Origin: Acidobacteriaceae bacterium
Lineage (GTDB): Bacteria; Acidobacteriota; Terriglobia; Terriglobales; Acidobacteriaceae
DNA length: 11,340 bases
Reading direction: 5' to 3'
Assembly (NCBI GenBank): GCA_030040115.1
Contig: JASHUH010000635.1
Coordinates: forward strand, 1 to 11,340
Each line of letters opens with the position of its first letter. The stretch's first letter is position 1. Shown one piece after another: positions 862 to 11,198 of this stretch. The translations under genes were made by a program, and so were the position numbers. The notes below the pieces were generated by a model. It was given only the letters and a program-made list of their open reading frames with translations, was not told where the DNA came from and searched no databases.

Positions 862-1392
862 CTAATCCGAAACTCCGGAAAATTGCTTGACTTCGGCGGC
901 TCCAGCTCCCAGCAGGCACTCCTGCACGTCCTGTTGCGAGCTTTCCAGCGGATCGGCAACGCCGACCAGGATCTTGCCCAGCCAGATCTCCGGATCCTTG
1001 ATGACTCCCTTGAAGTTCGGCAGCTTCGCGCCAACGAGCAATGTAATGAGCGCGGTCAGGATCGCTCCCAGCATCGTCAATTCATAGACGATGATTCCGT
1101 CGGTCCACATAGGACTCAGAGGCATTCCCCCGGTAAAAATCGGATAAGCTCTCTGAGTCAGCGTGGTCAGCAAATAGCCGCACCCGGCGCCGATGGCGGC
1201 GCCAAACACGGCCCATCCATAGGGACGCCGGGTAATGTGCGAGTCGGCAAAATCGTAGCCCTCATGCGGCTCGCCGGAGATAATGACGATCTGCCGCTCG
1301 TCGAAGTTGAGTTCCGAGCAGGCTGCATGCAACGCATCGACTGCGCGCTGCGCAGTCTCCGGGTCGGCATAAAGCGCATAGAGGACTTTCAT
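862..1392 (-). CDS. actD: ActD-like DUF3341 membrane subunit of alternative complex III-type oxidoreductase
   Basis: This 176-residue protein has the layout of the DUF3341/ActD family. A soluble N-terminal domain (about 1-60, opening MKVLYALYADPETAQRAVDAL) is followed by two membrane helices (roughly 62-82 and 102-122) joined by a loop with IFTGGMPLSP, then a C-terminal segment with FKGVIKDPEIWLGKILVGV. In alternative complex III, ActD is a small membrane subunit beside the NrfD-like subunits and holds no known cofactor; none is visible here. Its ATG overlaps the actC stop in an ATGA (4-bp overlap), implying translational coupling. It is the last intact gene of the operon. In canonical clusters actE (monoheme cytochrome) and actF (second NrfD-like subunit) follow, but here a broken regulator does. 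Confidence 0.9.
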   Translation of the reverse strand: MKVLYALYADPETAQRAVDALHAACSELNFDERQIVIISGEPHEGYDFADSHITRRPYGWAVFGAAIGAGCGYLLTTLTQRAYPIFTGGMPLSPMWTDGIIVYELTMLGAILTALITLLVGAKLPNFKGVIKDPEIWLGKILVGVADPLESSQQDVQECLLGAGAAEVKQFSGVSD

Positions 1393-2828
1393 TCCGGCAC
1401 ATCCGTGGGCAGCGGCCCTTCCAGCACCAGGCCATGCGGCTCAGCAATGGCCGGTGCGGTCGTAATAATCCCACCACCATGGGGCTGGAGCCCAACCTTC
1501 ATTTCCCAGATGGAAATCATCGGCACAGCCTTGGAGAAGAGCAGGTAGAGGAGCGCCATCATGCCAAAGCTCGAAGCCATGAGCGTGTCTTCCACCCAGG
1601 TGGGTCGATAGACGCCCCAGGAAAAAGGCAAAAACTTATGATCGAGCGCCGGCACAATAATGAGAAAACGCTCAATCCACATGCCCACGATAATTGTGCT
1701 TGAGGCAATCGCAGTCCCAGTGATAGTGCGGAAGCGCTTCATGGACAGGATGGGCACGGGGATGATCAGATTGCAGATCACCATCGTCCAGAACAGGGGC
1801 GCAAAGTGCAGGCGGATGCTCTGCCAGAAAACAGCCATCTCATCCGGGGTGTTGCCGTACCACGTGGTCAGCCGCTCACAAAAAGTGAAATAGAACCAGA
1901 GCAGGCTCATGGTGAGTAGCAGCTTGCCGAGATTGTTAAAGTGCAACGGCGTTAGATACTGCTCCAGGTGCAGAAAATGCCGCAGCAGCGCCATGGCCAG
2001 GATCAGGGCGGCGATGCCGCTGAAGATCGCGCCAGTGACGAAGTAGGGGCCGAAGATCGTCGAGTGCCACATCGGCACCAGCGTCATCGAGAAGTCCCAG
2101 GAAACGATGGTGTGCACGGAGACGGCCACTGGGACAATGGCAATGGCCATAATATGCATCGCGATTTCAAGCCGCTGCCATTGGCGCGGCGTGCCCTGCC
2201 AGCCAAGCGATAATATGCGGCAGATCTTCTTGCGGAAGCCGGTAGAGGCATCGCGAATCGCGGCGAAATCCGGGATTGTGGGGAGATACAGGAACGTGGT
2301 GCTGCCGGTGAGGTAGGTAAGAATCGCGAAGAAGTCCCAAAGCAGTGGGGAGCGGAAATTAGGCCATATTCCCCGTTGGTTGGGATAAGGAATCAACCAA
2401 TAGCCGAGCCACGGGCGTCCAATGTGGCAAAGCGGAATGAGGCCGCCAATCACGATCGAGAAGACCGTGATCGCCTCCGCGCACCGAGTGACCGGCCGCC
2501 GCCATGTCGCATTGCAGAGTCGCAGAATCGCGGAGATGAGCGTACCCGCGTGGCTAATGCCGATCCAGAACACAAAATTAGTGATATCGAATGCCCAGAA
2601 CACCGGGGAATTGATGCCCCAGACGCCGATGCCCGTATAGAGCTGATAGCCAAATGCGGCCACGCCCGCCAGGACAAGTAATCCCGACACCGCGACGGCA
2701 ACTTTATACTTGCCGCTGGTCGTAAAGATCGGCCGCAGCAGATCCTGCTCGATTCGTTCAGCTGCTCTTTGCGTCCTGCCCGTTGGCCGCTGCAGATCCT
2801 GCTCGATTTGTTCAACTGTTTTTTGCAT
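1389..2828 (-). CDS. actC: ActC-like NrfD/PsrC-family quinol-oxidising membrane subunit
   Basis: The product, 479 residues from the ATG at 2828, is a polytopic NrfD/PsrC protein with about ten predicted membrane helices (roughly 45-62, 80-103, 118-134, 163-186, 222-246, 255-283, 300-316, 340-360, 373-392, 416-434). CHIGRPW (134-140) followed by PYPNQRGIWPNFRSPL is characteristic of ActC/QrcD-like proteins. The family forms the membrane quinol site and passes electrons to the peripheral Fe-S subunit. The frame is open to 2975, but the upstream part lies inside actB2. The 2828 start is preferred because it overlaps the actB2 stop by only 17 bp and has GGCAGG just before it. The first 36 residues are two 18-residue repeats (MQKTVEQIEQDLQRP and TQRAAERIEQDLLRP cores) from a DNA duplication. 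The stop overlaps actD by 4 bp. Confidence 0.92.
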   Translation of the reverse strand: MQKTVEQIEQDLQRPTGRTQRAAERIEQDLLRPIFTTSGKYKVAVAVSGLLVLAGVAAFGYQLYTGIGVWGINSPVFWAFDITNFVFWIGISHAGTLISAILRLCNATWRRPVTRCAEAITVFSIVIGGLIPLCHIGRPWLGYWLIPYPNQRGIWPNFRSPLLWDFFAILTYLTGSTTFLYLPTIPDFAAIRDASTGFRKKICRILSLGWQGTPRQWQRLEIAMHIMAIAIVPVAVSVHTIVSWDFSMTLVPMWHSTIFGPYFVTGAIFSGIAALILAMALLRHFLHLEQYLTPLHFNNLGKLLLTMSLLWFYFTFCERLTTWYGNTPDEMAVFWQSIRLHFAPLFWTMVICNLIIPVPILSMKRFRTITGTAIASSTIIVGMWIERFLIIVPALDHKFLPFSWGVYRPTWVEDTLMASSFGMMALLYLLFSKAVPMISIWEMKVGLQPHGGGIITTAPAIAEPHGLVLEGPLPTDVPE

Positions 2829-2836
2829 CCTGCCAG
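2729..2836 (-). repeat. 54-bp tandem duplication spanning the actB2-actC junction
   Basis: Bases 2729-2782 and 2783-2836 are adjacent direct copies with 46 of 54 positions identical by my hand alignment. The outer copy (2783-2836) contains the actB2 stop and the actC ATG. The inner copy lies inside actC, in frame, and has ACG where the ATG would be. Read in the actB2 frame, the inner copy still encodes GQDAKSS-stop, matching WQDAKNS-stop of the real actB2 end. The duplication therefore copied the operon junction itself. Confidence 0.9.
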
Positions 2837-3519
2837 GCGCCTCGATCGAGGTAAGTAACGTTGGGCTTGGTGCCGAGTTCACCCATGAGTTTGGCGGCCC
2901 GATTCGAGCTCGCCAACCGCGAGACTTCACTATTGGGATCGTTGAGATCGCCGAAGACCAGAGCCTTGGATGCACAGGACTGCGCGCATGCGGTGGTCAA
3001 CTCGCCATCCTTCAGATCCCGCTTTTCCGCTTCGGCCTGAATCTCCGCCGACTTGATGCGCTGCACGCAGAAGGTGCACTTCTCCATGATGCCCACGCTG
3101 CGCACGGAAACGTCTGGATTAAGCTGCAGGTTCAGAGGCTTCTGCCAGCTCGGATTGAAGAAATTGAAGGACCGCACGGTGTAGGGGCAGGCATTGGCGC
3201 AGAAGCGAGTTCCAATACAGCGGTTATAAGCCTGGCCGTTCAGCCCTTCTTCCGTGTGATAGCTGGCGTATGTGGGACACACGGCCTCACAAGGAGCTGC
3301 ATCGCACTGCTGGCAAAGCACCGGTTGAAAACGAACCTTCGGATTGGGAAAATCTCCCTCCCAGCTGCGCTCTACGCGAATCCATTGCATGGCGCGGCCG
3401 ATGGCCGCCTGGTCTTTGCCCACCGTGGGAACGTTATTTTCGGCGTGGCAGGCGACCACGCACGCTTCGCATCCCGTGCAGCGGTCCAAATCCACCACCA
3501 ATCCCCACTTGTGCGCCAT
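2812..3519 (-). CDS. actB2: ActB2-like iron-sulfur subunit (three [4Fe-4S] and one [3Fe-4S] cluster)
   Basis: This 235-residue ferredoxin-like subunit is of the PsrB/DmsB/QrcC type. Four cysteine groups are visible: C14, C17, C20, C24; C69, C72, C77, C81; C101, T104, C107, C111; and C148, C151, C178, C182. In the third group (CIGTRFCANAC) the second cysteine is threonine, which predicts a [3Fe-4S] cluster and gives the 3+1 cluster set known for the B2 part of ActB. It should carry electrons from the quinol site of ActC to the hemes of ActA. It has no signal peptide and may be exported with the Tat-signal partner ActB1. In many alternative complex III clusters this domain is fused to B1; here the genes are separated by 52 bp. 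Start context: GGAGGAAAGGAA lies somewhat far (over 10 nt) upstream of the ATG. Confidence 0.93.
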   Translation of the reverse strand: MAHKWGLVVDLDRCTGCEACVVACHAENNVPTVGKDQAAIGRAMQWIRVERSWEGDFPNPKVRFQPVLCQQCDAAPCEAVCPTYASYHTEEGLNGQAYNRCIGTRFCANACPYTVRSFNFFNPSWQKPLNLQLNPDVSVRSVGIMEKCTFCVQRIKSAEIQAEAEKRDLKDGELTTACAQSCASKALVFGDLNDPNSEVSRLASSNRAAKLMGELGTKPNVTYLDRGAWQDAKNS

Positions 3520-3571
3520 AGACTCTAGTTCCTTTCCTCCGCGCCCTGCGGAGCACTTTACCCAGCCAAAA

Positions 3572-5899
3572 CTACCGTGGTTTCTCGTCGTGGGGGAAGC
3601 CGCTCATACCTCCCGCAAATAACACCAGCTTCGCCTGCTCCGGCCCGCCCACGCGCGCCAGCTTCACGCGCGTCGCGGCCCAGGCGAGCGATCCCGTACT
3701 GGGTTCTACGACCGGAGCGAGGATCGAAAGCGGGTTTGCGCCGTGACCACTTGCGAAACGGCCGAAGTTCTCGTGTCCTTGACCGACAGGCATGGCCAGA
3801 AGATCGGGAGCGATTCCCGGCGATAGCACCGCCGGAACACGCAGGCTTCCGGCCTGCGATGCAATCTCCACCAGATCGCCCTGCTGAATGCCTAGCATGG
3901 CGCCAGTCTTGGGATGGATCTCCACCCAGCTCGACCACATGGCGGTGGTGAGCGCATCGGGCAGCTCCTGCATCCAGGGCAGATGGGCGGTCGATCCGTC
4001 GCCAAACGACGGCGTGAGGTAAGGCTGAAAGTAAAAAGGAAAATCGGTAGCGCTGCCGGCAAACTCCGGCGCAGTCAGCGCATGGGACGCCTGCTTGCCT
4101 TGAGGCATGGCAGCGGGCTTGGCCGCGGCGCTTTTCCATCCCGCTGCCGCAGGCGCGCTCCACCAGCCGCCTTGCGTTTGCACACTCTGCCAGAAGTCAT
4201 CGTCCGTCTTCGCCGCCACCGACCCGCCTTGCGCACGGAGGGGAAGCAATGCGGCTTTCAGCATGGCGTCGAACGTCGCATAGGGAAGAGCTTTGGCCAA
4301 GTCCCCGCCAAGATGCTGCGCCACGCCAAGCAGCACGTCCGGCATCGGGCGCGTTTCATGCAACGGTGAAACAGCAGGCGGCGCCAAGCCGATCAGGGAT
4401 TGGAAGGACCCCGATTCGGGCACGCTGTCGAGCCAGGACTCGAGCGGCGCGTTATCGGGCAGAATCAGGTCAGCCTGAGCGCTGGTTTCGTCAATGAAAC
4501 TGCCCAAGCTGACGATGGTTGGAATCCTTGCAATTGCCTCGCGTATCTTTGTTGCAGGAGGCGCCGAGAAAATGGGATTGGCGTCGTAGAGCATCAGCAT
4601 CTGCGGCGTACCCGCCTTGCCGCTCAACACGGATTGCGCAAACGAATTGAGCCGCGCAAAGCTTGCCTGCGCCGGAGCAGCGGGCTCTCCCGCATTGCTG
4701 AGCGGCGGCTCAGGCGTAAAGCCCAGAATCGGACCCTCATCGCGATTTGCGTCCACCAACGATTCCAGAGCATTCACGGCCAGCGCGCTAAAGAGGCCAT
4801 TTGTCTGCGCCAGGGGCGCGCCGCCAACGATCGCGGCAGCCGCTCCGCTCAGCGTCATCTCATGCGCGAGGCGCGTCATCACCGCGGCGCTCACCCCGGT
4901 TTGCTTTTCCACGGCTTCAGGCGTGAACTCCGGCAGGCCCGCAGACCAGCCGGCGATCTGCGAACCTGCGCGCGACGCCGCAGGCGACGCGATGCTTTGA
5001 GGCGCAAGCTTCTGGCTCAAGATCACATGCGCAATGCCCAGCGCCAGCACGCCTTCCGTTCCCGGCTTGCACGCGATCCACTCATCGGCGTTCGCGCCGG
5101 TCTGCGACATGCGCGACTCGACCTGCACGAACTTGCCGCGGCGTCCGGGACGGCCCCGGCGCATCGCGCCGTAACCGATCGACTGCGCGACCGGCGAGTT
5201 CCATGTGCCGAGGAAATCCGCTCCGAAGCTGATCACATAATCGGCTCGGGCCAAGTCGAGCGTCGGCAGCGCCGCATGCCCAAAGCTCAGAAGATTTGCC
5301 TGGCGCAGCACGGCTTCGTCAAAAGGTTCGTACCAGACTGCGGGGGGCGCGCCAAACGCCGTCAGAAACTTCTCGATCAACTCGCGACGTTGTCCCCGCA
5401 ATGGCCGCGCGAGAAAGGCCAGTGCATTTGCGGACCTCGATGCTTGGAGCGCAGTCAAGTGCGAGGTTAACTCCTTAAGCGCATCGTCCCACGATATCGC
5501 CTGAAACTGGCCCGAGCCCCGTGCCCCCGAGCGCTTGATGGGCTTCGTAATCCGGTCCGGATGATAGAGCACCTGCAACCCGGCCTGACCCCGCGCGCAC
5601 AGTTTGCCTGCGTTGATTGGATTCTGCGGGCTGCCCTCAAGCCTTTTCGCCAGGCCCATCTTGATGAGGCCCCGCTCTCCGTGACGCTCCACTTCGGCGT
5701 CGCCCTGCATCACGCGCACCTGAAGACCGCATCCCGCAGAGCACAGTGTGCAGATGCTCGGCTTCCAGACGGCGATGCCGGGGATCAGATTTTCTTCCGG
5801 AATGAAACGGATGAGCTGTTTATCTGGCGCGCGGCAGGCGTCGAGCGTGGCGGCTACGCCCGTGAGCGCCGAAATTTTGATGAAATTGCGCCGTTCCAT
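3572..5899 (-). CDS. actB1: ActB1-like molybdopterin-oxidoreductase-family subunit with Tat signal
   Basis: This 775-residue protein belongs to the molybdopterin oxidoreductase family (PsrA/PhsA/QrcB/ActB1 branch). The N-terminus has a twin-arginine motif (RRNFIK, residues 3-8), a hydrophobic stretch and a lipobox-like LDAC ending at C22, so it should act outside the cytoplasmic membrane. A complete four-cysteine cluster motif follows: C50, C53, C57 and C101. The family's middle section is recognisable (YVISFGADFL at 221-230; ADEWIACKPGTEGVLALG from 271), as is a C-terminal dinucleotide-binding-like domain (about 635-745). The only other cysteine is C277, and the region before YVISFG, where catalytic members have the Mo-ligating Cys/SeCys/Ser, has no cysteine. 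It is therefore probably a structural or electron-transfer subunit without molybdenum, as in ActB and QrcB. It starts 24 bp after actA. Confidence 0.88.
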   Translation of the reverse strand: MERRNFIKISALTGVAATLDACRAPDKQLIRFIPEENLIPGIAVWKPSICTLCSAGCGLQVRVMQGDAEVERHGERGLIKMGLAKRLEGSPQNPINAGKLCARGQAGLQVLYHPDRITKPIKRSGARGSGQFQAISWDDALKELTSHLTALQASRSANALAFLARPLRGQRRELIEKFLTAFGAPPAVWYEPFDEAVLRQANLLSFGHAALPTLDLARADYVISFGADFLGTWNSPVAQSIGYGAMRRGRPGRRGKFVQVESRMSQTGANADEWIACKPGTEGVLALGIAHVILSQKLAPQSIASPAASRAGSQIAGWSAGLPEFTPEAVEKQTGVSAAVMTRLAHEMTLSGAAAAIVGGAPLAQTNGLFSALAVNALESLVDANRDEGPILGFTPEPPLSNAGEPAAPAQASFARLNSFAQSVLSGKAGTPQMLMLYDANPIFSAPPATKIREAIARIPTIVSLGSFIDETSAQADLILPDNAPLESWLDSVPESGSFQSLIGLAPPAVSPLHETRPMPDVLLGVAQHLGGDLAKALPYATFDAMLKAALLPLRAQGGSVAAKTDDDFWQSVQTQGGWWSAPAAAGWKSAAAKPAAMPQGKQASHALTAPEFAGSATDFPFYFQPYLTPSFGDGSTAHLPWMQELPDALTTAMWSSWVEIHPKTGAMLGIQQGDLVEIASQAGSLRVPAVLSPGIAPDLLAMPVGQGHENFGRFASGHGANPLSILAPVVEPSTGSLAWAATRVKLARVGGPEQAKLVLFAGGMSGFPHDEKPR

Positions 5900-5923
5900 A
5901 AAGAGCCGCCGGAATCCTATTCG

Positions 5924-6529
5924 TTAGAAGTGACAGGTATCGCAGTCGACAGACACCCGCTTTTGCTTGTGGCACTCGACACAGAAACCCATATTCAGAT
6001 TTACCTTGCGTTCCGCCGTGGTTTGCTTAGTCATATCGCCGTGGCAGGTGGAGCAAGCCACACCTGCGCGAATGTGCGGCGCATGATTGAATCGCACATG
6101 AGCCGATGGGCTGTAGTTGTATACCCGCACCCAGGGAATATCTTCGCCGCGCGCCTGATAGGCGGCGATTTTCTTGATCTCTGGATTATTTGTGTCGATC
6201 ACCATGTGGCAACCCATACAGAACGTCACATTGGGAATCTGTGCGTCGGGCCCCTGACTGACTCCCACATGGCAGGTCGTGCACTGCATTCGTTTGGCCA
6301 GATGAACGGTGTGCGTGAAGGCGATCGGCTGCACCGGATGTTCCGGATGCATATCGAGAAAATCTTCAAAAGCGCTTGCCGCGGTTGGATGCGCGGGTGT
6401 GAAGACACCGCTGGATACATATTGAGACGACCCGGATGGACTCGCCGCCTGACCGCGTGAAACTACCTCTGCCAGCCCCCAAACCGAGAAGCCAGCGACA
6501 ATTATGAGTAACCACTTTTGCCAACCCAT
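5924..6529 (-). CDS. actA: ActA-like pentaheme cytochrome c
   Basis: This 201-residue protein has five CXXCH heme c sites: CTTCH 83-87, CMGCH 104-108, CSTCH 159-163, CVECH 183-187 and CDTCH 196-200. One N-terminal hydrophobic helix (about 7-23, uncleaved anchor or signal) would hold it on the outer face of the membrane. Additional histidines (H64, H73, H76, H144, H149, H152) are candidate distal heme ligands. Five hemes and first position in the operon match ActA of alternative complex III; the Qrc counterpart QrcA is a six-heme protein. It would receive electrons from the Fe-S subunit and hand them to a mono- or diheme cytochrome or an oxidase. No such partner is in the window. The start at 6529 is the first ATG that gives the membrane anchor. 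Confidence 0.92.
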   Translation of the reverse strand: MGWQKWLLIIVAGFSVWGLAEVVSRGQAASPSGSSQYVSSGVFTPAHPTAASAFEDFLDMHPEHPVQPIAFTHTVHLAKRMQCTTCHVGVSQGPDAQIPNVTFCMGCHMVIDTNNPEIKKIAAYQARGEDIPWVRVYNYSPSAHVRFNHAPHIRAGVACSTCHGDMTKQTTAERKVNLNMGFCVECHKQKRVSVDCDTCHF

Positions 6530-7203: not shown

Positions 7204-9483
7204 TCAGAATTCATCGAATGCGATGTGCTCCGCAGCCACGCCGAGCGTGGCGAGCATCCGATTGCAGGCTTTGACCATAGCGGGAGGGCCGCAGAGGTAG
7301 TACTCCAAGGATGCTGGATGGGGATGCGCGTACAGGTGCTGGGCGAGGACAACGTCATGAATGAAGCCGCCGTGGCCGGTCCAGCGATCTTCAGGGAGCG
7401 GCGCCGAGAGCGCGAGGTGAAACGAAAAGTTGGGGAACGATCGGGTGAGGGCCGAGAAATAATCTTCATAGAAGATTTCCTGGCGCGAGCGCGCGCCATA
7501 CCAGAAACTGATTTTGCGGTCGGTTGCCTGTGCATGGAGCAACCAGGAAATATGCGCACGGAGCGGGGCCATGCCGGCACCGCCGCCGATATAGACCATT
7601 TCGCGCTTGGTGGGCTTGACGTGGAAGTCGCCGAAGGGGCCGATGGCGGAGACGACGTCACCGGGTTTGAGGTTGAAAACATAGCTCGATCCGACGCCGG
7701 GGGCGCATTGCTGACCAATGGGTGGCGTGGCAATGCGCACATTGAATCGGAGCTGACGCTCGGTTGCGGGGTTGCTGGCGATGGAGTAGTTGTTGCGGCG
7801 GCCGGCATGCGGATTCGCGGCGACGAGATCGAAAACGTGTTGATTGCGCCAGACCGTGGCAAAGGGTTCAGGGATATCGAAGCCTCGAAAGGGGATGGAA
7901 TCGTAGGGTGGGATTTCGAACTGGAGATAGTCGCCGGGAGTGAAGTCGATTGCGGCGGGACTCTCCGGTTCAAGAACCAGCTCTTTGATGAACGCGGCCA
8001 CGCTGTGATTGCTGACCACGCGGAAACGGAGAGTGGCTTGCGCGCGGAAGCCTACGCCACCAGGATGGGCGAGATTGATGCGGATTTGGGAGCCGATCTC
8101 CTCGACGGGATACGTGGCAAGGCCGCGGCAGATGGGGGCACGGGCGGGAGAGCCGTCGGCGAGATTGAAGCGGCCGTTGTGTTTGGGGCATTCGATCGTG
8201 CCGCCGAGGACGAGGCCTTCAGAAAGATGGGTGTTACCGTGAGTGCATAGACCATCCGTTGCGTAAAGGCGGCCTTCGGCATCGCGGTAAAGCGCATAGG
8301 TTTTGCGAAGACAGTCGAAACGGATTGCGTCTGCGCATGGAAGTGCGGATGCCGGGCACACAGGAAGCCAGCCTTCGCTGTCGGGCTCCGCTGCGGAGGT
8401 GAAGCAGGACTCGCGAGCGCGGGATCTGGGCTCGGGCAGGATGCGTTTGATATGGTAGGCGGGATCTTTGGTTTGCCGGAGGATGGCGGGCACGATCTCA
8501 CGCCAGGCGTGAAGAATGCCGCGGTAGGGCGGCGGACAATCGTCCTTAACCATTGCGTGGAGTTGAGGCAGCGCGTGATAGGGAACCAGCGGGAACATGT
8601 GGTGCTCGACGTGGTAGTTCATGTTCCAGTAGAGGAAGCGGTGCAGGCGGTTCATGTAGACCGTGCGGCAGTTGAGGCGGTGGTCGAGAACGTTCTCTGC
8701 AAGGCCCGCGTGTTGCGTGAAACCGTAGATGGGCATAAGCCATGCGCCGAAGAAATTGGTGAGGCCCACGAGCATCAGCGGCAGGATGGAGCGCTCATCT
8801 ATGGAGAGCGCGAGGACGGCCGCGTACACGCCGAGATAGATGCGCGCGCGAAAGTAAACGCGGTGGAATTCACCGCGCGGGATGAAGGTTTCCTCTTCAG
8901 GCAGCATGCGGCCCATGCTGTGCCAGAGGATGGCGCGGAAGTAGTGCGCGTAACTGGGAACATTAAAAAAGGTGAGCACGATCCGGGTGAGGCTGGGCGG
9001 ACGCGGAACAGCAATTTCAGGATCGCGGCCGACGATAATGGTGTCGCTATGGTGACGGTTGTGGCTCCAGCGCCAGATGACGGACTCACGCATCACCATG
9101 AACGATGCGATTTCATAAAGCGCGTTGTTCATCCAATCGGTTTTGAAGGCGGTGCCGTGACCAGACTCGTGCCAGCGGGAGTCAGAGGTTGTGGTGTAGA
9201 GGACGCTATAGATGAGATAGGGCAGGATTGCCCACCACGAACCCCAGAGCGCCCAGGTGGCGAAACCCGAGCCGAGGATGAGAACAAACCAGAGAAGGGT
9301 ATCGCGGAGAGCGGGGCCATCGCGGCGGACGAGCAACTGCCGCATGGTTTCACGTGGGACCGGGCATTGGTACCATTCAGCTTCGGCCAAACCGTTCTCG
9401 ACCGCGAGCTTTGAGTTGGGCCCAATGAGGCTGTAGTCGGGGCTTGGCGGCCGCTCAGTGAGGGTGGCGGTGGTGGAACTCAT
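7204..9483 (-). CDS. Three-domain fusion: fatty-acid desaturase/hydroxylase, Rieske ferredoxin, NqrF-like FAD/NAD(P)H reductase
   Basis: One 759-residue frame holds a complete redox chain. Residues 1-340 are a membrane fatty-acid desaturase-superfamily domain with helices near 62-98 and 213-250 and the three His boxes H105-ESG-H109, H141-NR-HH145 and H291-VE-HH295, which bind the diiron site. Residues about 370-470 are a Rieske [2Fe-2S] domain: C413-T-H415, 16 residues, then C432-PK-H435. Residues about 485-759 resemble the FAD/NADH part of NqrF: RRNNYSIA (flavin), GGGAGMAPLRAHI (633-645, nucleotide), WYGARS, and C731-GPP near the end. NqrF's own membrane helix and plant-type ferredoxin domain are absent. 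Electrons should flow NAD(P)H to FAD to Rieske to diiron, supporting O2-dependent desaturation, hydroxylation or demethylation of an unknown substrate. The order equals separate MocD, MocE and MocF. The start at 9483 has only a weak ribosome site. Confidence 0.9.
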   Translation of the reverse strand: MSSTTATLTERPPSPDYSLIGPNSKLAVENGLAEAEWYQCPVPRETMRQLLVRRDGPALRDTLLWFVLILGSGFATWALWGSWWAILPYLIYSVLYTTTSDSRWHESGHGTAFKTDWMNNALYEIASFMVMRESVIWRWSHNRHHSDTIIVGRDPEIAVPRPPSLTRIVLTFFNVPSYAHYFRAILWHSMGRMLPEEETFIPRGEFHRVYFRARIYLGVYAAVLALSIDERSILPLMLVGLTNFFGAWLMPIYGFTQHAGLAENVLDHRLNCRTVYMNRLHRFLYWNMNYHVEHHMFPLVPYHALPQLHAMVKDDCPPPYRGILHAWREIVPAILRQTKDPAYHIKRILPEPRSRARESCFTSAAEPDSEGWLPVCPASALPCADAIRFDCLRKTYALYRDAEGRLYATDGLCTHGNTHLSEGLVLGGTIECPKHNGRFNLADGSPARAPICRGLATYPVEEIGSQIRINLAHPGGVGFRAQATLRFRVVSNHSVAAFIKELVLEPESPAAIDFTPGDYLQFEIPPYDSIPFRGFDIPEPFATVWRNQHVFDLVAANPHAGRRNNYSIASNPATERQLRFNVRIATPPIGQQCAPGVGSSYVFNLKPGDVVSAIGPFGDFHVKPTKREMVYIGGGAGMAPLRAHISWLLHAQATDRKISFWYGARSRQEIFYEDYFSALTRSFPNFSFHLALSAPLPEDRWTGHGGFIHDVVLAQHLYAHPHPASLEYYLCGPPAMVKACNRMLATLGVAAEHIAFDEF

Positions 9484-9626: not shown

Positions 9627-10862
9627 TCAGGGCTGATCTGTCACTTTGTGGATAGAGGCAGGATGATTCCAGGCCTCTGGCTTGATTCTCATTCCAAATC
9701 CGCTCTCTTCCGGGACTTGAATGTTTCCGTTGCTCGGAGCGATGGGATTTTCAAGCATGAGGGGCCAATCGTGCTCATAAAAACGTTGACAGCTTTCCAG
9801 GATCCATACATTCGGCATGGCCGTGGAAAGGTGCGTCGAAGCATAAAACAGGAGCGGGCCTCCCGCAGTGTGCGGCGAAATCGGCAATTCGTTGGCGTCG
9901 GCAAGCGCCGCAATTTTGCGCGCTTCCGTCAGGCCCCCACACCAGGTTACGTCGAACTCCACGTACTTTGGCGTGCGCGATTCGAGCAGGCTCTCAAACT
10001 GCATCTTGCCGCCCATACGTTCGCCAACAATCAGCGGCGCAGATGTCGCCGCAGCCAGTTCATGGTACTGCGCGTAGTTGCCGGGCATGAGCATATCTTC
10101 GAGCCACATAGGCTTGTAAGGCTCAAGTGCGTGTGCGATCCGAATTGCGGCGGTGAGATTCCATTGCGCGTGGCACTCAATGGCAATCTCAATTTCGTCT
10201 CCAAAACCGTCGCGCAATTTTTTGACGGGAACGAGAGCCTCGTCGATGTCCTGCCAGGTGATGAACTCGTTCCGGTTGCGTGCGGCAGCGCCATCGAATG
10301 GCCAGATCTTGATTCCGTGAATGCCGCGGGTTTCGATCAGCTCGCGCATGATCTTTTCGGGTTCTTTGTTGAAATCGTACTTATAGGGGAAGCAGGTATT
10401 GTAGAGGCGGACCTGCGGGTTGGACTTGCCGCCAATCAATCTGTAGACCGGCGCATTCAACGACTTCCCCAGCAAATCCCAGAGAGCCAGGTCAAGTGCG
10501 CTGAGGACGCGCATCTCCGCGCCGCCCGCGATCTGAAAGTCGAAGGTGCGGTAGAGATCGGCCCAAATCCGCTCGATATCGCGTGGGTCCTTGCCGATCA
10601 AGGAAGGCGCAATGCTGTGAATCATTGCGGCCTCCACCGGGTTGCGCGGATAGGTTTCTCCCACGCCAAAAATGCCGGCGTCGGTTTCGACCTTTAGCCA
10701 GGTCCAATGGGGCCAGAATGGAGCGTCATCGCGGGTTTTCCAGTAAACCGTCTCCACGCTCCTGATTCTCATCGGCGGCATTGCTCCTGCGAATGAGGAG
10801 AATGCGGCCGCAAGCGGTGACGCGAGCATGCTGGATATAAAGGCCCTTCTAGTTGGTTTCAT
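9627..10862 (-). CDS. Tat-exported enolase-superfamily (mandelate racemase/muconate lactonizing) enzyme, probable acid-sugar dehydratase
   Basis: From the ATG at 10862 the protein has 411 residues. A Tat signal comes first (RRAFI at 5-9, hydrophobic to about 27, AGA before a likely cleavage site), then the capping domain (about 31-145) and the barrel. Active-site residues can be matched to the family: K185 in IKIWPFD, E229 and H231 in IECH, E255 in WLED, E281 in GERM, D304 in EFDVTW, H331 in SPHTAGG and E356. E229, E255 and E281 should bind Mg2+, and D304-H331 form the His-Asp base dyad. The second lysine of the racemase KxK motif is replaced by W187, and E-x-H recalls galactonate/gluconate dehydratases. 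Dehydration of a sugar acid is thus likelier than racemisation; the substrate is unknown. The frame stays open to 11003, but those 47 residues resemble no signal or domain. Confidence 0.87.
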   Translation of the reverse strand: MKPTRRAFISSMLASPLAAAFSSFAGAMPPMRIRSVETVYWKTRDDAPFWPHWTWLKVETDAGIFGVGETYPRNPVEAAMIHSIAPSLIGKDPRDIERIWADLYRTFDFQIAGGAEMRVLSALDLALWDLLGKSLNAPVYRLIGGKSNPQVRLYNTCFPYKYDFNKEPEKIMRELIETRGIHGIKIWPFDGAAARNRNEFITWQDIDEALVPVKKLRDGFGDEIEIAIECHAQWNLTAAIRIAHALEPYKPMWLEDMLMPGNYAQYHELAAATSAPLIVGERMGGKMQFESLLESRTPKYVEFDVTWCGGLTEARKIAALADANELPISPHTAGGPLLFYASTHLSTAMPNVWILESCQRFYEHDWPLMLENPIAPSNGNIQVPEESGFGMRIKPEAWNHPASIHKVTDQP

Positions 10863-10869
10863 GGCCGGA

Positions 10870-10898
10870 ACTATAGGCGCGCCAACGAAACTAGGCAA
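10870..10898 (-). promoter_or_regulatory. Predicted promoter giving a leaderless transcript of the enolase-superfamily gene
   Basis: On the minus strand TTGCCT (10893-10898), a 17-bp spacer and TATAGT (10870-10875) form a sigma-70-like promoter. The -10 element ends seven bases before the ATG at 10862, so transcription should begin within about two bases of the start codon. No Shine-Dalgarno sequence is present, which fits leaderless translation. Confidence 0.5.
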
Positions 10899-11198
10899 AA
10901 GCAAGGTAGTCGCGGCTGCGCTGTGGTTGAGGTTCGGAACGCAGATCAGTCCCACAGGCGAAAAACGCGTGGATCTCCCGCGCTCAAGAGGGCTCGCACT
11001 CATCCGATGCCTGGCGGCGCAACCCCACGGGCGATTCCTGAGCCGCTCGGATTACGCTCACCGCAAAGCAAAGCACCTCGGCGCAGAAGGATATCTGAGC
11101 CATGCGGATACTCCGCATCGAGAGATTCGTTTCGAGTGGCTCGGCGGCGAGCCTATCAGCAAAAATCGAGGGAACGAGCGGCGTTTCGCAGAACCGTG
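10899..11198. other. Intergenic region without a recognisable gene
   Basis: About 300 bp separate the enolase-family promoter from the ABC-ATPase-like sequence. Overlapping open frames run through it on both strands (10984-11340 minus; 10828-11223 and 10923-11324 plus), rich in Arg/Ser/Pro and without recognisable motifs, as expected for non-coding GC-rich DNA. I see no repeat, RNA gene or clear plus-strand promoter. Confidence 0.45.

Follow-up and report, generated by a model that had tools for sequence, protein, structure and literature searches.

One gene in an Acidobacteriaceae genome (contig JASHUH010000635.1 of assembly GCA_030040115.1; hereafter the window, which is the entire 11,340-base contig) joins a desaturase, a Rieske domain and an NqrF-type reductase in a single 759-residue protein. 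This architecture is near certain. The family that shares it is real, conserved, widespread and apparently uncharacterized, and corresponds to a single-chain MocD-MocE oxygenase with a swapped reductase. On balance, we consider it probable that the fusion is a self-sufficient membrane diiron monooxygenase in which MocD-MocE is joined to an NqrF-type reductase, and that its reaction is the O-demethylation of a small carbohydrate.

Three redox domains in one frame

The fusion frame starts with an ATG at 9483, its stop codon ends at 7204 on the minus strand, and its 759 codons include zero internal stops. A sequence-only reading of this DNA had placed all His boxes, the Rieske CTH/CPKH pair and the flavin adenine dinucleotide (FAD) and nicotinamide adenine dinucleotide (NAD) motifs in this frame, and both the coordinates and the Pfam and NCBIfam hits agree with it (Table 1). 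Stop codons between the domains, which that reading had named as a possible refutation, are absent, and the architecture recurs in many separate assemblies.

Table 1. Features of the fusion gene and its upstream neighbor (window coordinates)
Feature	Residues	Position	Strand	Basis
Fusion gene, desaturase-Rieske-NqrF-type reductase, 759 aa		7204..9483	minus	Open reading frame, Pfam/NCBIfam scans
FA_desaturase / MocD-like domain	82-323	8515..9240	minus	Pfam, 103.6 bits
His box 1	H105-E106-x-x-H109	9157..9171	minus	Invariant 73/73
His box 2	H141-x-x-H144-H145	9049..9063	minus	Invariant 73/73
Extra invariant His	H258	8710..8712	minus	73/73 fusions, 11/11 split, 4/4 outgroup
His box 3	H291-x-x-H294-H295	8599..8613	minus	Invariant 73/73
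Rieske / MocE-like domain	372-459	8107..8370	minus	Pfam and NCBIfam
Rieske cluster ligands	C413-T-H415 ... C432-P-K-H435	8179..8247	minus	73/73 fusions, 9/9 split MocE
NqrF-type FAD/NADH domain	488-759	7207..8022	minus	NCBIfam TIGR01941
GGGAGM nucleotide-binding motif	633-638	7570..7587	minus	Sequence and family alignment
CGPP motif	731-734	7282..7293	minus	Sequence and family alignment
Enolase-superfamily (MR_MLE) sugar-acid dehydratase-like protein		9627..11003	minus	Pfam/NCBIfam scans

The FA_desaturase (PF00487) score compares with a cut-off of 29.7 bits; Rieske scores 63.2 bits (cut-off 20.3) and NAD_binding_1, at residues 632-740, 54.1 bits (cut-off 22), with FAD_binding_6 at residues 548-621 slightly below threshold (20.7 versus 21.1 bits). 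Eight His-box histidines and four Rieske ligands, twelve residues in all, are invariant across the 73 aligned family sequences, an alignment that omits 8 of the 80 loci described below. A ring-hydroxylating Rieske oxygenase was considered and rejected: the Pfam hits include no mononuclear-iron catalytic domain, and the partner of the Rieske domain is FA_desaturase. Within the flavodomain, residues 562-567 read RRNNYS in most of the fusions displayed, and a one-residue-shorter RRNYS or KRNYS occurs in several deeper branches (L058, L069, L072, L075, L078 and L081).

The C-terminal domain exceeds the cut-off of the NCBIfam equivalog model for nqrF (TIGR01941; 314.8 bits versus 295), and the source records of many listed relatives use the name Na+-transporting NADH:ubiquinone reductase subunit F. 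Taken at face value, score and names would make the fusion subunit F of the Na+-translocating NADH:quinone reductase (Na+-NQR), but this is scarcely credible, since the ferredoxin part of NqrF is absent, a desaturase is present, and the window's other scanned genes include no nqr gene. The match spans only profile positions 133-403 of 405, and no N-terminal plant-type [2Fe-2S] domain is found among the Pfam hits. Together with the above-threshold Rieske hit, this upholds the earlier proposal of a one-polypeptide analogue that uses the NqrF flavodomain, with a Rieske domain in place of NqrF's own ferredoxin domain. The naming of fusions as Na+-NQR subunit F is a systematic mis-annotation, in which TIGR01941 gives a respiratory-pump name to members of an oxygenase family.

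A conserved family with a patchy distribution

Scoring of 8,000 candidates gave 4,679 database clusters that match the fusion at E <= 1e-3. Each of the 120 matches listed combines desaturase, Rieske and NAD domains, is at least 70% identical and has 751-786 residues; matches beyond these may be partial. The closest named relatives among the matches listed include Acidobacteriaceae and Terracidiphilus records. The sequence-only reading had asked how widespread the architecture is. A one-genome-per-species scan returned at least 586 relatives, and the 80 genome loci kept represent seven phyla (Acidobacteriota, Verrucomicrobiota, Kiritimatiellota, Lentisphaerota, Bacteroidota, Chloroflexota and Planctomycetota) plus one metagenome-assembled genome titled Betaproteobacteria. 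A literature search found no paper on a desaturase-Rieske-NqrF fusion.

Closer to the window, a full-length frame is present in 17 of 200 genomes of its order (G000 counted), and in G128, of the same order, the fusion lies in two pieces on two contigs. The phylum sample yielded the fusion in 3 of 297 genomes: G000, G037 and G313, the last matching as two segments of one frame. Of the 33 phylum genomes with any match, 30 match in the last domain alone (44-50% identity), and these are probably true NqrF. No plasmid record covers 80% of the fusion.

The ratio of nonsynonymous to synonymous substitution rates (dN/dS) is ~0.08 and ~0.14 against two relatives, with synonymous sites near saturation; L062 and L082 yielded identical values and were counted once. 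Judged by these comparisons, the gene is patchy in distribution yet under constraint. The host assembly is 85% complete, with 4.1 Mb in 649 contigs. We dismiss chance or a mis-joined contig because the listed relatives share the architecture, the assemblies are many and separate, and dN/dS is low. It is likewise extremely improbable that the open frame encodes a chimera that is decaying or without function: truncated or chimeric-looking copies exist in the databases (P0338), but nothing in the window's own gene supports this view, all ligands are intact, and the low dN/dS is joined by an architecture kept across several phyla. In the phylogeny the fusions form a single clade (support 99/99), and the branch joining the 73 fusions with ten split MocDs has support 99/98.

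Gene context and proposed chemistry

The oxygenase and Rieske components of the fusion are homologous to MocD and MocE and stand in identical order. The desaturase part shares 47-54% identity with ten split MocDs encoded on plasmids and 44% with the split MocD of G157, and the Rieske part is 35-47% identical to separate plasmid-borne MocE; the eight His-box histidines are common to 11/11 split MocD and the four Rieske ligands to 9/9 split MocE. The fusion scores 96.1 bits with the MocE model TIGR02377, under its cut-off of 136.15. According to excerpts of the cited papers, mocDEF is part of the catabolism of rhizopine, which is 3-O-methyl-scyllo-inosamine or scyllo-inosamine (PMC10107442, PMC3538637, PMC6668481). 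Excerpts also place a TIM-barrel (triosephosphate isomerase-like) gene and a LacI-type regulator near rhizobial mocDEF (PMC3538637); in Pseudomonas syringae, mocDEF has a second xylose isomerase beside it (PMC5132102). That MocDEF demethylates is something we infer here; the excerpted rhizopine papers do not state it.

A PanB-like hydroxymethyltransferase gene occurs at 8 of 10 annotated split loci, with purU in three, folD in one and inositol genes in three; PanB-like, purU and folD genes are expected there if a one-carbon unit is released. TIM-barrel genes lie close by in five of the ten. The one behind the split mocF of Acidiphilium is a relative (28% identity over 249 residues) of TIM1, an AP_endonuc_2-like TIM barrel found near fusions, and matches 39 of 81 fusion loci; the TIM barrels of the R. 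etli and Marivivens split loci have zero matches in those 81.

For 78 fusion loci, we compared same-strand genes within 250 base pairs (bp; n = 100) with genes at distances above 2 kb (n = 431), a comparison that matters because TIM-barrel genes are common in the window's genome (20 matches). TIM1 accounts for 31 close neighbors versus 2 distant genes and aldose 1-epimerase for 13 versus 3; the corresponding counts are 6 versus 4 for UroD-like proteins and 3 versus 3 for sugar transporters of the major facilitator superfamily (MFS). TIM1 mostly lies downstream of the fusion (27 downstream, 4 upstream), and the epimerase upstream (10, with 3 downstream). Operon neighbors scanned (n = 135) include 16 aldose epimerases, 16 AP_endonuc_2, 11 URO-D, 7 Gfo/Idh/MocA, 4 Sugar_tr and 4 aldo-keto reductases. 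Residues E145, D173, H176, H206 and E259 are invariant in an alignment of 20 TIM1 proteins that includes the one from Acidiphilium. The TIM1-type partner beside both split (Acidiphilium) and fused forms is the strongest functional clue. Further contexts are KduI and a gluconate 5-dehydrogenase in Winogradskyella, each scoring above its cut-off, a melibiase in L007 and a sulfatase in L045; the MFS proteins of L110 and L112 resemble galactonate transporters and score below the cut-off.

The domains, conserved ligands, family, phylogeny and gene context are direct observations; the activity, substrate, electron path, membrane location and demethylation of the fusion are what we infer. NADH would reduce FAD in the C-terminal domain, from which electrons would move singly to the central Rieske [2Fe-2S] cluster and on to the histidine-bound diiron site of the N-terminal membrane domain. 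That site would activate O2 and hydroxylate the methyl group of a small carbohydrate (an O-methyl aldose, uronate or cyclitol); breakdown of the resulting hemiacetal would yield free sugar and formaldehyde, and isomerase- or epimerase-type neighbor enzymes may channel the freed sugar into catabolism. A carbohydrate is the likely substrate, and O-demethylation the best single guess at the reaction.

Weighing against this proposal, the one-carbon genes of the split loci (PanB-like, purU, folD) occur at 0 of 81 fusion loci, which weakens the transfer of the demethylation argument from split to fused forms. The same absence favors a self-sufficient diiron carbohydrate oxygenase acting otherwise, for instance by N-demethylation, C-H hydroxylation or sugar or cyclitol oxidation. 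The carbohydrate gene context fits such an enzyme too, and the methyl-free amino-cyclitol scyllo-inosamine is also a rhizopine (excerpt of PMC6668481); we nonetheless think this unlikely, as the one-carbon genes beside the split relatives fit release of a one-carbon unit. Still less likely is an enzyme of lipids that carries its own reductase and desaturates or hydroxylates fatty acids or ether lipids. The FA_desaturase domain, likely membrane helices (hydrophobic segments) and an apparent resemblance of the fold to AlkB would suit it, but identity to the two clearest outside desaturases is low (29% for L104, 31% for L108), no lipid family appears among the 25 commonest of 81 operon-neighbor families displayed, and the DesB model of NCBIfam gives 24.5 against a cut-off of 500.

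Extending the O-demethylation proposal to the whole family is more tentative, and we place it somewhat short of an even chance. The fusions would then be an unrecognized, widespread class of self-sufficient membrane diiron oxygenases that arose once, when MocD-MocE was joined to the NqrF flavodomain. In Acidobacteriota, Verrucomicrobiota, Bacteroidota and relatives they would O-demethylate methylated sugars from plants, algae or microbes, and the label Na+-NQR subunit F would have concealed them. Such a family may remove methyl groups from small sugars and, if the carbohydrate assignment is true, would give environmental carbon turnover a non-P450 means of opening methylated sugars. One reason why membrane diiron enzymes are difficult to study is that they depend on separate electron donors; a version that nature has built as a single chain would make a convenient model and might also serve as a biocatalyst.

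Several loci show further arrangements. In three genomes of two genera in the window's family (L110, L111 and L112), the order is MFS transporter, TIM barrel, fusion, with more TIM-barrel and Gfo/Idh/MocA-like genes nearby (L111 was judged from similar sequence only). UroD-like proteins recur beside the fusion, for example in L009, L019, L036, L060 and L067, and L016 has UroD-like and small B12-binding-like genes a few kb off (judged by eye); these are possibly a second, corrinoid demethylation route. L016 also carries a P450, whose adjoining gene resembles a ferredoxin by sequence.

In the window itself, the MR_MLE gene is the closest same-strand gene upstream of the fusion (gap 143 bp) and a possible operon partner; its one relative among 80 other loci, a distant one, is in L051. 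A twin-Arg-like leader read by eye from an internal Met at 10862 (MKPTRRAFIS...) suggests an exported, sugar-acid dehydratase-like protein. Downstream, a minus-strand run of Alternative complex III genes (862-6529) includes an ActD gene (862-1392), an NrfD-type ActC (1389-2975), a separate Fer4 protein (2812-3519), a molybdopterin-like ActB (3572-5899) and a cytochrome gene (5924-6529); the ActB halves are separate genes here. Directly behind actD, 294 to ~780 on the minus strand encodes only the end of a sigma-54 activator, with AAA lid and HTH_8 but no ATPase core, either a remnant or an assembly join.

Comparison with known systems

MocDEF comprises three polypeptides, whereas the fusion is one chain. 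The third domain was considered as a MocF and rejected: MocF has a different fold (Pyr_redox_2 plus Reductase_C), and the fusion instead matches the NqrF flavodomain, an NqrF-type ferredoxin-NADP+ reductase (FNR). Carbohydrate or cyclitol gene context is common to both kinds of locus; regulators differ, with AraC-type near some fusions and LacI/MocR for MocDEF. Relative to NqrF, the fusion is without the plant-type ferredoxin part, and its electrons presumably reach the Rieske cluster and O2 rather than a Na+ pump.

Electron supply to AlkB is rubredoxin-based, in contrast to the Rieske and FNR domains of the fusion, and gene contexts differ; a sequence comparison of the fusion with solved structures gave no useful match. 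A chemical parallel to our proposal is a marine Bacteroidetes P450 system that demethylates 6-O-methyl-D-galactose with a monooxygenase, a ferredoxin and a reductase, turning a sugar methyl ether into sugar and formaldehyde (excerpt of PMC10033563). The fusion is proposed to carry out the same conversion. The galactose system is built on a heme P450, from a different protein superfamily, whose ferredoxin and reductase are separate proteins. The self-sufficient P450s CYP102 and CYP116B use heme rather than a membrane diiron site and are without a Rieske cluster; like the fusion, they hold an oxygenase and its full electron chain in a single polypeptide.
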